Positions 3,367 through 59,450 of a DNA stretch of 64,000 nt are shown here, in pieces. The DNA lies in assembly GCA_016235815.1 (NCBI GenBank), contig JACRIM010000050.1, positions 1-64,000 of the forward strand. The letters are read 5' to 3'. The stretch comes from Planctomycetota bacterium (GTDB lineage Bacteria; Planctomycetota; Phycisphaerae; UBA1845; UTPLA1). The position numbers and the translations under genes were made by a program. Below the pieces are notes generated by a model, which was not told the origin of the DNA, searched no databases, and saw nothing but the letters and a program-made list of their open reading frames with translations. Each line of letters begins with the position of its first letter. Position 1 is the first letter of the stretch.

Positions 3367-4269
3367 GAGTGTTCCTCTCAGACAGGAGCGATCATTCTAC
3401 CCAATGGACTGCACCACCGTCAGCCGCGCGGGCAATCACGCGCCCATTGGAGAAGTCGCTTCCCGATCCCCTCGCGCAACGCATCGTTTCACTCAAATTA
3501 GGAAAAAACAGGATTCGCCCCCCTGACCGCTATTAACTCTCGACCAGCCCAAGACTTATCGCAATTCCAGTCCGTCTGAAACGGTGATCAAGATTGATAG
3601 GTGTAGGTAAAGAAGGGACGTTGAGTCACAACATGAGAATCACGTATGGCCCAGACAAAACAAACCCCATTGATCGCCCAACGACTACATCATCGTTCGA
3701 CCGTGGGGATTCGACATTCGGCACGCCTTCTCCCGCCGCCGTGCCGGGAAACGCCAGCAGACGCCAGCTGTTTTTCAATTCCCACGTCAATTTGCCGCAA
3801 TTGCGGCCCCACCCCCACGTCGCGCAGCGATCATCCTCCTGCGCCTCAGGACTCAGGACTCAAGACTCAAAACTCAGGACTCAGGTCTTCCTTCCAATCC
3901 CTTTGTGCGATTTTGCGCGCTCCAGCCCGGTTTTTGTGCTTTTTTGTGGGGGGTATTTTTTTACAGCCCAACGTCGCGCAGCGACCCCTTCCTCGGCTCT
4001 GTTCCCTGTTCCCCGTTCCCTGTCCCCTCTGTGCCTCAGTGCCTTCGTGCCTCTGTGCCTATCGCTTTTCCTCGGCCCCTCTTCCCCCCACTTCACCGCA
4101 TCCCTCCCAATCTGCAGTTTCAACAATTCGCCAACAGCCGCGCCGGCCCCTCATCCGTCTTCCCTCGGTACTGACATCACGCAGCGCCTTCGAGCAATCC
4201 ATTCACCCGGCGCGGTCCGGGTGACCGGGGCGCAGCGCGGTCGGTGCCAACTTCAACGAGGGATGACCC
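3367..4269. other. gene-free, repeat-rich stretch
   Basis: About 900 bases with long open frames on the plus strand but no credible protein: the translations are low-complexity and shift between Ser/Pro/Arg-rich runs. It holds word repeats: an ACTCAGG/ACTCAAG series at 3844-3889, an 18-bp piece of which (3872-3889) recurs inverted at 59284-59301; a GTTCCCTGTTCCCCG series and a GTGCCTC series at about 3997-4060; and two copies of ACGTCGCGCAGCGA near 3818 and 3971. The last 20 bases carry the SD sequence (GAGGGAT) of the beta-helix gene. Confidence 0.65.
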
Positions 4270-5607: not shown

Positions 5608-6330
5608 ATGAAAGCAAATGTGAATCATGCGACGGGGGTGCGACACGTTGCCCTTGCATCGCTTGCACTGGTGCTCACGGCCGGAGCGGCGTTCGCGCAG
5701 TCGAACATCAGCCCGGTCAACAAATGGACCTGGGCCGAGAACGCCGGCTGGGTGAACTGGTTCGACAACGGCGTCACCAGCGGCGCGTTCGTCGGCAACT
5801 TCGTCCTCTCGGGATACATCTGGGCGGAAAACATCGGCTGGATCTATCTCGGCGACGGCGTGCCGGACTTCGGCAACACCTACAGCAACGCGACGGCCGC
5901 CGACACCGGCGTAAACATCGCCGCCGACGGAACGTTGACCGGATACGCCTGGGCCGAGAACGCCGGGTGGATCAACTTCGACACCGCCGTGGCCGGACCG
6001 CTCCGCGCAAGGCTTAACGGCTGCTGCACGGATGGGCGGCTGCACGGTTACGCCTGGGGCGAGAACCTCGGCTGGATCAATCTCGAACCGACGCCGGGAA
6101 TCTTTGTCTCCATCGCGCCCGGTTCAATCCGCAAGAAGGCGGACACCGATGCCAATACCCTTCGCAACGGTCGTGACGCCCAGCGGTTCATTCAGACATT
6201 CCTGAACCCCGCGGCGGCGTCGCACTTCGACTTCTGCGCATCAGACTTGAACAGCGACGGCGTGGTGAACAACCTCGATGTGCCGCTCTTCGTGAACTGC
6301 CTGCTGAACGGCGCGTGCGTCTGCCCGTAA
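5608..6330 (+). CDS. secreted WxENxGW-repeat protein with dockerin-like tail
   Basis: I chose ATG 5608 because GGAG sits 8 bases before it; GTG 5590 and ATG 5602 are also in frame. The product is about 240 residues with a signal peptide ending AGAAFAQ. Four repeats follow: WAENAGWVNW, WAENIGWIYL, WAENAGWINF and WGENLGWINL, spaced about 35-45 residues. The C-terminal 60 residues have paired EF-hand-like loops (DTDANTLRNGRDAQRFIQTFL and DLNSDGVVNNLDVPLFVNCLL), as in dockerin-like domains of planctomycete exported proteins. In cellulosomes dockerins bind cohesins; no cohesin gene is seen here. Function is unknown, probably extracellular. Confidence 0.75.
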   Translation: MKANVNHATGVRHVALASLALVLTAGAAFAQSNISPVNKWTWAENAGWVNWFDNGVTSGAFVGNFVLSGYIWAENIGWIYLGDGVPDFGNTYSNATAADTGVNIAADGTLTGYAWAENAGWINFDTAVAGPLRARLNGCCTDGRLHGYAWGENLGWINLEPTPGIFVSIAPGSIRKKADTDANTLRNGRDAQRFIQTFLNPAAASHFDFCASDLNSDGVVNNLDVPLFVNCLLNGACVCP

Positions 6331-6414
6331 GTGCCTCGCTGTATGTGCCTCGCTGTAAGTGCCTCACTGTAAGTGCCTCACTGTAGGTGCCTCACTGTAA
6401 GTGCCTCACTGTGG
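6331..6414. repeat. six tandem copies of a 14-bp unit
   Basis: Six direct copies of GTGCCTC(A/G)CTGTRN, each 14 bp with one or two variable positions, begin right after the stop codon of the WxENxGW gene. The unit is not a multiple of three. It resembles the GTGCCTC words in the 3997-4060 region. It could vary in copy number by slippage. Confidence 0.9.
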
Positions 6415-6433
6415 CACCGGTTTCCAACCGGTG
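6409..6433 (+). repeat. dispersed 25-bp palindromic repeat, intergenic copy
   Basis: This 25-bp sequence contains the inverted repeat CACCGGTT-TCC-AACCGGTG. The same 25 bases occur in reverse orientation at 58766-58790, inside the Rieske oxygenase gene, where they are translated. It overlaps the last unit of the 14-bp tandem repeat. Confidence 0.85.
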
Positions 6434-58117: not shown

Positions 58118-59326
58118 TCAGCCTTCCGCCAACCGAAAATTATCATGCAGCAGCCGGTGAAACAGATGTTCCCCCGCCTCGCGGCGCACCGATAATCGCC
58201 CCGTGTCATACGCCCTTGATTGCAGCCCGCGCTGCACCGATTCGCAGATGTCCACGTCTTCCTGCTGCACACTCGTGCCGACTTCCACGCTCTTCCTGTT
58301 TCTTTCTTCCGCGGCCGGGCTGATGTCGTCGAAGTAGAAATCGAACACCACGAGGCATTTGTCGACGGCGAGGGGGATGACGAGGTTGGTGTCCATCACG
58401 CCTTCGTACCAGTTCAGCATGAAGTTCGGGTGCAGCCAGTAGTAGTAGGCCGTGTCGCCCCGGCGGACCGCGGCGAAGCCGGCATCCTTGCCTTGTTTCA
58501 TCGGGCTCCATTGCAGGCAGTAGCGATCCCGCGTCTCAATCAGGTAGTCGCTGTACTCAAGGACCGTGTTCAGCCCTTTGTGCAGGTGCGGAATGTGGTA
58601 GCCGCCGTCGAGGTAGTTATCCACGTAGACCTTCCAGTTGCAGTTGATCGGCCAAGAGCGGCGCTCGAAGAACTTGAGCGTGGACAGATTGAGCGGCTTT
58701 GTGCGCTCCGGAATGTCGCCGAGGTAGTCGGCAAGAGAGGGAATGGGGGCGACTGAAGGGGAGGACACCGGTTGGAAACCGGTGCCACAGGTTTGACCGG
58801 TCAGGAGACCGGTCCCACAAGGTGGACAAGTCCCTAGGTGTACAAAGACCAAGTTCTCCCACGTGTCCACGCGCACGGGCACGAGGCTGTTTTGCTTTTT
58901 GTCGAACCACTCCACGCCGTCGAACTCGGGGGCGCCTTTGAGCGAGCCGTCAAAGTCGTAGGTCCAGCCGTGATAAGGGCAGCGAAGCACGCCGCAGGTT
59001 CCTTCGACCTCGGTCGCGATGATGGCGGCGTGGTGGCGGCAGACGTTGAAGCAGGCGTGGAGCTTCCCGTCATTGCCGCGGGTCACAACGATCGGCTCGC
59101 CGCCGACATCGGCCGTGATGAAGCGACCCGGTTCTTGCAGTTGGTCGAGTCGGCCGACGAACTGCCATGTGTTACCGAAGACGGTGCGGCGTTCAAGCTC
59201 GGCGATGCGCGCGTCGGTGTACCACGCGCTGGGGATCGTGGCAGCGCGGGCCAGCGGCAACGTGGGGTCGTACGCATCGAGCAAAGACCTGAGTCCTGAG
59301 TCCTGAGTTCTGAGGGGCGTGATCAT
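58118..59326 (-). CDS. Rieske-type aromatic-ring-hydroxylating oxygenase alpha subunit
   Basis: 402 residues. Rieske [2Fe-2S] site: CRHHAAIIATEVEGTCGVLRCPYHGW (Cys/His pairs CxH and CxxH) at about 95-120. Mononuclear iron site: NCNWKVYVDNYLDGGYHIPHLHKGL (about 235-258) with the two His and the Asp bridge. Such subunits take electrons from a ferredoxin/reductase to oxidise a substrate; no partner genes are nearby and the substrate is unknown. Two repeats lie inside the frame: an ACTCAGG-word repeat coding for residues 6-12 (RTQDSGL), and two palindromes coding GTGLLTGQTCGTGFQPVSS about 175-193. Confidence 0.88.
   Translation of the reverse strand: MITPLRTQDSGLRSLLDAYDPTLPLARAATIPSAWYTDARIAELERRTVFGNTWQFVGRLDQLQEPGRFITADVGGEPIVVTRGNDGKLHACFNVCRHHAAIIATEVEGTCGVLRCPYHGWTYDFDGSLKGAPEFDGVEWFDKKQNSLVPVRVDTWENLVFVHLGTCPPCGTGLLTGQTCGTGFQPVSSPSVAPIPSLADYLGDIPERTKPLNLSTLKFFERRSWPINCNWKVYVDNYLDGGYHIPHLHKGLNTVLEYSDYLIETRDRYCLQWSPMKQGKDAGFAAVRRGDTAYYYWLHPNFMLNWYEGVMDTNLVIPLAVDKCLVVFDFYFDDISPAAEERNRKSVEVGTSVQQEDVDICESVQRGLQSRAYDTGRLSVRREAGEHLFHRLLHDNFRLAEG
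58766..58822 (-). repeat. palindromic repeats inside the Rieske gene
   Basis: Read on the minus strand: GACCGGTC-TCCT-GACCGGTC, a short spacer, then the 25-bp sequence containing CACCGGTT-TCC-AACCGGTG (58766-58790) that also lies at 6409-6433. Both remain in frame and are translated as the TGLLTGQTCGTGFQPV segment. Confidence 0.85.
59284..59315 (-). repeat. ACTCAGG-word repeat at the Rieske N-terminus
   Basis: Four ACTCAGG/ACTCAGA words; 18 bp (59284-59301) are the inverse of 3872-3889. It begins two or three codons after ATG 59326, so it codes the N-terminal PLRTQDSGLRS. Confidence 0.8.
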
Positions 59327-59368: not shown

Positions 59369-59450
59369 GAATGACCAATGTCAAATTACCAATTACAAAA
59401 ACTCGCTGCCGCCCGCCACATGCATTTGGTAATTGGTAATTCGTCATTCG
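59369..59450. repeat. inverted-repeat unit 1, over the glycosyltransferase stop
   Basis: Left arm 59369-59396 (GAATGACCAATGTC...AATTACCAATTAC) and right arm 59425-59450 (TTTGGTAATTGGTAATTC then GTCATTCG) are largely inverse, separated by about 28 unique bases. The glycosyltransferase stop codon (59444-59446) lies in the right arm, so its last two codons come from the repeat. Confidence 0.8.

Follow-up and report, generated by a model that had tools for sequence, protein, structure and literature searches.

How do dispersed palindromes come to lie in the reading frame of an enzyme, and which element put them there? The question is raised by a Rieske oxygenase gene in the window, that is, the whole stretch of 64,000 nucleotides of planctomycete DNA that was analysed. 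According to the original prediction, this gene has absorbed two kinds of dispersed repeat in frame, a palindrome and an ACTCAGG heptamer, by an insertion process that preserves the frame and generates new coding sequence.

Palindromes in the Rieske oxygenase gene

The open reading frame (ORF; Table 1) matches both Rieske (PF00355) and Ring_hydroxyl_A (PF00848) above the Pfam cut-offs, and its peptide includes CGTGLLTGQTCGTGFQPVSS, as described earlier. The structures in the PDB nearest to its AlphaFold2 model (overall pLDDT 82.4, pTM 0.86) are those of carnitine monooxygenase CntA (6zgp and 6y9c; TM 0.78/0.85 for 6y9c). A pseudogene was considered and ruled out: the frame is intact, both domains are over their cut-offs and the model folds well.

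ORF, peptide and coordinates agree that the palindromes are in frame. Both copies are GTGG-tagged and lie in tandem within a 27-residue insertion. Searches with the protein gave a match in 26 of 61 genomes, and the two homologue sets that were aligned contain 19 and 27 rows other than the window protein, two of which are common to both. The insertion is present in none of the 19 other rows of the first alignment (20 rows with the window protein); in the second, columns 170-196 are gapped throughout in 25 of the 27 other rows and over 26 columns in the remaining two. The alignment check proposed with the prediction thus identifies the palindrome segment as an insertion. Repeat-free homologues with the same peptide were looked for and no aligned homologue has it, so that the absorption of a dispersed palindrome in frame by this gene is well supported. 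Among the homologues, L006 of G002 (ORF 693-2166) has another, longer insertion at the same loop, with the repeat-like peptide SPSPRPSPLKGEG; in L007 of its congener G013 the loop is empty, and L005 has about a dozen additional residues there.

Residues 167-191, as well as residues 1-8, have pLDDT values below 50 in the model, which homologue-poor columns would also depress, and the inserted segment is predicted to be a disordered loop. New coding sequence has literally been generated here, as had been proposed, but the segment is one of predicted disorder and nothing suggests selection for it.

Table 1. Positions of the repeats and genes discussed in the text (window coordinates unless a locus is named)
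Feature	Position	Strand	Basis	Remarks
Rieske non-haem oxygenase (CntA-like fold), 402 aa, insertion carrier	58118..59326	minus	Pfam and AlphaFold2	
Insertion of 81 bp in the Rieske gene (residues 166-192)	58751..58831	minus	homologue alignments	coordinates derived from residue numbers
REP copy 1 in the Rieske gene	58767..58789	minus	exact match to TGTGGCACCGGTTTCCAACCGGT	translated CGTGFQPV
REP copy 2 in the Rieske gene	58796..58819	minus	TGTGGGACCGGTCTCCTGACCGGT	translated CGTGLLTG
ACTCAGG heptamer array, at least 3 units, N-terminus of the Rieske ORF	59287..59308	minus		translated RTQDSGLR
ACTCAGG-type heptamer array, at least 4 units	3845..3887	plus		inside a 371-aa open frame
Exact REP copy	6410..6432	plus	pattern match and frame scan	no spanning frame of 150 aa
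PurH-RAYT frame of this genome (G000, C21)	L058 1323-3704		Pfam	one open frame, 793 aa
SpoU/TrmH-type rRNA methyltransferase (G000, C23)	L069:9471-10691	minus		REP array between its two domains

The REP family of this genome

A sample of 864 kb of this genome (G000), made up of the window and 40 further stretches, contains 53 matches to the 23-mer TGTGGCACCGGTTTCCAACCGGT when up to 6 mismatches are allowed; the reversed control contains 1. Among these, 39 have at most 4 mismatches, and at least 4 of the remainder are known copies read from the opposite strand. Genome-wide (4.58 Mb), the pattern TGTGGCACNGGTTTCCAACCNGT, a 23-mer with two free positions, occurs in 73 copies against 0 in the control, and 12-mers of the family are the commonest in the 864-kb sample. 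The unit consists of a TGTGG tag, an ACCGGT stem and a loop, which fits the definition of a GT[AG]G-tagged palindrome of 20-40 nt; the stems vary with compensation (CCGG/CCGG, CAGG/CCTG, CGGG/CCCG), and tag and loop are mostly constant. The sequence features of the GTAG superfamily are all found, namely a tagged palindrome, a high dispersed copy number and a RAYT flanked by the same REPs. Judged by these features, the Rieske palindromes are REPs, GTGG-tagged hairpins such as are ascribed to REP-associated tyrosine transposases (RAYT or TnpA_REP, HUH enzymes). Another 12-mer, GAAAAGTCGAAA, is also among the commonest words of the sample (26 times in 864 kb).

About 1.03 Mb of the genome, partly chosen for having copies, contains 116 REPs (up to 4 mismatches) in 41 clusters, of which 22 are spanned by a frame of at least 150 aa. 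Scanning of the frames of interest, short ones excluded, placed 10 of the 41 inside Pfam-supported genes, eight in number, and left 31 without a recognised gene. The eight genes encode the Rieske protein, PurH (2 clusters), SpoU, a Ser/Thr kinase (2 sites), methionine synthase, SelB and two family-4 glycosyltransferases. TGFQPV-type peptides had been said to recur in planctomycete proteins, and these ten clusters bear this out within the present genome. In SelB, the REP lies between winged-helix matches close to the protein end. The array in the SpoU gene has 13 tandem 30-bp units (L069 9927-10309), all in frame, which encode about 128 residues of DRLETGATRG. The codon phase is identical (CGTGFQPV or HRLETGAT) at 9 of the 10 in-gene sites, the left arm in PurH being mixed. 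This is so although the REP consensus is stop-free in all six frames.

The idea that the insertion mechanism itself preserves the frame is better replaced by one of survival, given the 31 clusters without a recognised gene: in-gene REPs appear frame-preserving because an insertion that was out of frame, contained a stop or lay at an intolerant place would not be found in a gene. The same clusters fit a wider explanation, in which insertion of REPs and RAYT units is random, rare cases in frame within loops survive, and inheritance is vertical with frequent loss; recurrent insertion sites would then be tolerant loops, and no homing would take place.

The copy near 6409-6433, which had been called intergenic, is exact and free of a spanning frame of 150 aa (Table 1). 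A tandem GTGCCTCACTGTAA-like repeat occupies positions 6330-6410, immediately ahead of it. In another genome, G019, a REP array (C4:225741-227481) is spaced at about 66, 132 or 198 bp, with the value 133 occurring twice.

A RAYT domain inside PurH

Ten Y1_Tnp loci were found in the genome, and a scan of up to 1.5 kb on each side, with perfect 6-bp stems, detected TGTGGCACCGG-type REPs at C21 only. This locus is purH: the single frame contains an MGS match at 30-145 and an AICARFT match in two pieces, with the Y1_Tnp match between them. In the whole protein, the latter scores 20.3 bits against a cut-off of 23. With NF047646 (cut-off 80 bits), the PurH insert scores 75.2 and that of RarA 76.9, and the inserts of IleRS, LeuRS and GcvP, described below, reach 86.4, 87.9 and 83.8, respectively. 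Inverted REP pairs flank the RAYT (L058 2233-2858), 2233-2258 being paired with 2833-2858 and 2258-2282 with 2808-2832, in arms of 26 and 25 nt. No second AICARFT locus was found genome-wide (the genome is 95.5% complete), leaving purH as the sole copy. From the identity of the REPs, we infer that the RAYT inside PurH is the most plausible agent of REP insertion into the Rieske gene. Such a RAYT would recognise GTGG hairpins and mobilise REPs singly, in pairs or together with the RAYT as a whole unit, and in genes an insertion would last only in a tolerant surface loop and if it kept the frame and added no stop.

A second REP family, GTAGGGTCCGCTGTGCGGAC, forms inverted pairs around another Y1_Tnp gene of this genome (L042:1262-2067, C29), which encodes 228 aa and is apparently free-standing.

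Nested RAYT domains across the order

A search of 31 genomes with the PurH-RAYT as query located this type, referred to as the first type, within PurH in three genomes (G000, G019 and G029) and close relatives in frames of 540-1647 aa that Pfam identifies as IleRS, GcvP and RarA/MgsA. A 13-row RAYT alignment, searched over 114 genomes of the order (E <= 1e-20), matches 48 places in 35 of them; G046, with 12 exact REP copies, and G031, with 8, have no match at this threshold. Fifty frames contain a RAYT match. By host homology, the same host protein lies on both sides in 31 (PurH 13, IleRS 9, GcvP 3, LeuRS 2, MmeI 2, methylase 2), and RarA is added by Pfam. The host is found on one side only in nine, comprising six PurH frames (five end at a contig end and that of G065 is broken) and three IleRS pieces of G065, which are broken or beside a run of X. 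The remaining nine have no assigned host, and L252, L253 and L257 were counted in this way because their one-sided methylase match probably arises from the N-terminal part of the RAYT itself. The frame of L267 (RAYT 86-248, MutS 542-1405) was left out of the nested count. In this frame (L267:1364-5587, minus strand, G110), the RAYT is upstream of MutS, possibly as an N-terminal fusion or a neighbouring element.

The PurH site of G002, G013, G012 and G030 holds a different TnpA, with NHxH or DHxH, a Y...Q motif and other REP-like peptides (AARAEARGSL). By the Y...Q motif, this second type resembles class 3 as defined in the accessible text of PMC6006769, a resemblance only. Second-type inserts score low with NF047646 (AlaRS 30.2 and ValRS 24.7 bits). 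A second-type query has matches in 51 of the 114 genomes, in frames that are mostly shorter than 280 aa or longer than 800 aa, some being intermediate. Nested cases make up 24 of the 25 frames looked at, a count that is not a rate, since 20 frames were chosen by length and the others are C34 of G000 and the four PurHs. Their hosts, again by homology, are AlaRS (11), PurH (7), ValRS (4), LeuRS (1) and MmeI (1). The sole alaS of the present genome is among them (C34, a 1238-aa frame), and the alaS model, spanning the insert, gives it 854 bits (cut-off 457). A second alaS turned up in none of the 11 genomes that have a nested one; in this check, G083 and G084 end at contig ends, the gene of G107 is split over two contigs, and the last part of that of G027 is in another frame.

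Both types together amount to 56 open frames in 42 of the 114 genomes in which a RAYT-type domain lies inside a host recognised on both sides, a lower bound as part of the frames was examined. The host proteins are PurH, AlaRS, IleRS, ValRS, LeuRS, GcvP, RarA, MmeI and a DNA methylase. The nested frames are 645-1686 aa long (contig-end frames excluded), and the RAYT domain has no stop of its own. A curated host model exceeds its cut-off across the insert in six of seven nested proteins (PurH, IleRS, AlaRS, LeuRS, ValRS and GcvP), RarA falling short; PurH passes NF002049 but not TIGR00355.

All of this evidence is sequence from assemblies, many of them drafts, and separate genes might seem fused through errors of assembly, frameshifts or annotation, as the broken frames of G065 could suggest. 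Against this stand the 56 stop-free frames with their hosts recognised on both sides and the six proteins that pass the curated cut-offs. The number of independent assemblies already makes an artefact unlikely as a general account, and we regard it as extremely improbable.

Outside the order, 69 of 392 genomes of the phylum have a match, with up to 10 candidates scored per genome. Among the 122 places listed, 19 are in frames of at least 780 aa, including PurH of the present genome and a frame of G129 with two internal stops, and three of the long frames (1224-1389 aa) belong to other families of the same class. The rest are mostly below 400 aa and apparently free-standing.

Insertion sites and constraint

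In 17 PurH proteins (13 of the first type and 4 of the second), the insert lies between an ELTR-like segment and CVFIKHTNACG, which in the present genome corresponds to a position between residues 269 and 276 of PDB 3zzm. IleRS inserts are found before VSLLVWTTTPWTL in six frames and after ISTLLF in three, and that of G010 falls between residues 212 and 220 of 8c8v. The two first-type inserts of LeuRS precede LRVFTTRPDTIFGA, a site that looks paralogous to the IleRS position, and the second-type insert is further along. In AlaRS, the main site is before VM.D.AYRVI and another is before VISGEDAF. The insertion sites thus recur across genomes. Random insertion with chance survival is compatible with where the inserts lie, that of the Rieske protein in a model loop and those of PurH and IleRS at short gaps when the proteins are aligned with solved structures, but it is less easily reconciled with two TnpA types that carry different REPs and share the same PurH site.

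Of the 38 host-associated RAYTs, some of them in cut or broken frames, 30 are flanked by inverted REP-like matches; the corresponding counts are 1 of 114 for shuffled pairs and 10 of 150 for cross-locus pairs. The HUH (D-H-x-H) and Y..NP residues are invariant in all 13 aligned first-type RAYTs (11 nested, 2 free), and by analogy to the known RAYT family we take them to be the catalytic residues. Rough dN/dS values of the RAYT domain are 0.07-0.20 in the 9 of 13 pairs that were computable (dS 1.2-2.9), the other four being saturated, and most dS values lie close to saturation or beyond it; one pair includes L256, whose host is only tentatively labelled 'N6Mtase?' in the RAYT tree. The clearest case, the PurH pair of G002 and G013 (dS 0.64), has dN/dS of 0.13 in the domain, 0.12 in the C-part and 0.30 in the N-part of PurH, and 0.32 and 1.12 in the linkers.

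Constraint on the domain and not on the linkers could also mean that the RAYT domain is now useful to the host enzyme, in regulation or nucleic-acid binding, and is conserved for this reason; nucleic-acid enzymes are indeed common among the hosts. Empty PurH homologues exist within the same family, however, related domains occur in unrelated enzymes, and the invariant positions include residues of the transposase catalytic type, so that we consider exaptation improbable.

An intein reading of the nested RAYTs was also considered and rejected, as Pfam scans of the nested proteins revealed no splicing family and no intein splicing (Hint) domain.

Histories of insert and host

A tree of 48 RAYTs, from which pieces below 95 aa were excluded, clusters by host gene, with 13 changes against a shuffled mean of 27.3 (0 of 200 shuffles are as low). 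G019 has three nested first-type RAYTs, in PurH, IleRS and GcvP, and they fall in separate parts of this tree. The RAYT of PurH in the present genome groups with f4 genomes (98/89 in the 48-row tree and 93/79 in a smaller set). The RAYT trees hold G000, G072, G019 and G044 together, a clade not starred in the smaller tree, and host PurH data reject this clade (p-AU 0.0002, quick tree; the tested clades were chosen after the trees had been seen). The host PurH of the present genome lies outside a group (97/93) in which f4 and f8 are joined by a single genome each of f2 and f1; the PurH tree does not recover family f1 as one clade, with G003 placed in the f4/f8 group. Rows missed by the motif split (e.g., G007, G011, G015) are excluded from the PurH trees. 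PurH RAYTs of G041, G032 and G050 group with IleRS RAYTs (91/92), and this grouping may in part explain why a clade of every PurH RAYT except that of G000 is rejected (p-AU 0.005). The phylogenies of insert and host thus disagree for PurH of the present genome, and horizontal spread is supported for this case only. Perhaps first-type RAYTs entered the PurH site on more than one occasion, with the second type arriving separately.

Vertical inheritance of chance survivors agrees with the fact that PurH RAYTs largely group by family, f4 or f8. This explanation is weakened by the host PurH data, which reject the clade holding the RAYT of the present genome, and by the 31-genome search, in which this genome alone among those of f1 has the first type in PurH, so that vertical descent needs many losses. 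We consider it doubtful, although a serious contender. The conflict between trees would equally result if recombination had exchanged parts of host genes (purH, ileS or alaS) with the insert already in place, with no transposition at all. Against this alternative, after the insert the PurH of the present genome matches the empty PurH of G008 (f1) at 82%, though the insert itself falls with f4; a tract transferred along with it would have to be short. In addition, catalytic-type residues of the RAYT are kept, and transfer of host segments appears unlikely.

The REP/RAYT explanation as a whole, with REPs in the Rieske gene, RAYT units resident in host proteins, and a putative movement with homing-like re-entry, is quite probably the best one. 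In this explanation, a stop-less unit in an essential protein would be shielded from loss, because imprecise excision would harm the host, in a manner akin to inteins but without protein splicing. Within the host enzyme, the transposase would form an additional domain, held by flexible linkers that REPs encode, and units would re-enter the same site in other lineages, a homing-like behaviour suggested by the recurrent sites and the phylogenetic conflict. More specifically, and tentatively, stop-less REP/RAYT units in essential enzymes may be a non-splicing counterpart of inteins, homing into the same loops (PurH, the VWTTTPWTL/VFTTRPDTI region of IleRS/LeuRS, AlaRS, ValRS and GcvP) and seeding REPs genome-wide, including those of the Rieske gene.

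Relation to known systems

Small mobile elements consisting of REPs and their transposases are widespread in bacteria, and their spread has been called poorly understood in the accessible part of PMC8266576. Accessible sections of PMC6006769 define RAYT/TnpA_REP by HUH and Y..NP or Y...Q motifs and flanking GT[AG]G REPs, describe GTGG tag variants, and report REPs inserted into tnpA_REP genes with the frame undisrupted. The median TnpA lengths given there are 148-325 aa by subclass, in contrast to the stop-less domain within the long frames described here, and unexpectedly long TnpA proteins were discarded as fusions or annotation errors. The nested frames are thus a warning to annotators, since long proteins thrown out as fusions may be nested RAYTs.

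REPs inside genes, of the GTAG and CGTC families, are described in the accessible text of PMC3733652 as tagged palindromes that are translated, often as paired or grouped copies that add 20-30 residues; a GTGG tag variant (Opitutus) and families in planctomycetes are mentioned as well. These are repeats within genes, whereas whole transposase units are in frame here, and the largest REP-encoded regions given there, 43-82 residues, are shorter than the SpoU array of the present genome. The Rickettsia palindromic elements treated in the same text are likewise palindromes in frame in genes that likely encode functional proteins, but they have a CGTC tag or are of the longer RPE-1 kind, belong to another phylum and are described there with no mention of an embedded transposase; the tag here is TGTGG. 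REPs inside genes are therefore already known. For RAYTs that lie in frame within housekeeping proteins, the literature covered gave no report, most subscription papers and bioRxiv preprints lying outside this coverage.

Inteins have recurrent insertion sites and carry a nuclease within the insert. In the accounts accessible to us, inteins with homing endonucleases are also in frame in important proteins and sporadically distributed; nested RAYTs differ in having no splicing domain, linkers encoded by REPs, and an HUH transposase as the enzyme. They offer a testable case of homing without splicing, and also a natural experiment in domain insertion, in which aminoacyl-tRNA synthetases have received a transposase of some 140 residues, joined by linkers that REPs encode. 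According to the accessible text of PMC10632474, these synthetases are among the essential genes of Planctopirus limnophila that are common to other bacteria. A RAYT lineage locked in essential enzymes would have a direct reason for persistence.

Heptamer arrays

The second repeat of the Rieske gene was expected to encode its first residues. The N-terminal array does read as expected (Table 1), but whether it is translated depends on the start codon. ATG 59326 is preceded by GGAG at 6 nt, and a TTG just downstream of the array is a possible alternative start. The distance from Met to TIP is 29 residues in the window protein. Among 14 close homologues, a distance of 22 is possible in 8 (4 of which also offer another Met), 5 have 20-26, and 1 has no Met. 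An insertion of 21 bp, that is, three heptamers adding 7 aa, is plausible and fits if ATG 59326 is the start.

The further copy at 3872-3889, said to be intergenic, does belong to an array, but one within an open frame (Table 1), which leaves its intergenic status unproven. In DNA sampled from this genome, 16 of 20 ACTCAGG-type clusters are in an open frame of at least 200 aa, with the sense orientation in each listed frame. The opposite strand of the arrays contains TGA, and several arrays are in long frames (2354 aa in L082, 764 aa in L077) that are candidates as genes. The reversed-pattern control (138 vs 126 matches) is invalid, the reversed heptamer being a rotation of itself. The TAACTGA repeats of Beggiatoaceae are also tandem 7-bp units dispersed over a genome, as far as the accessible text of PMC4679880 describes them; the unit here is a different one, and one array may have added seven residues to a protein. 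Just upstream of the Rieske gene, at 59378-59445 of the window, inverted ATTGGTA-type heptamers (AATTACCAATTAC ... GGTAATTGGTAATT) are present.
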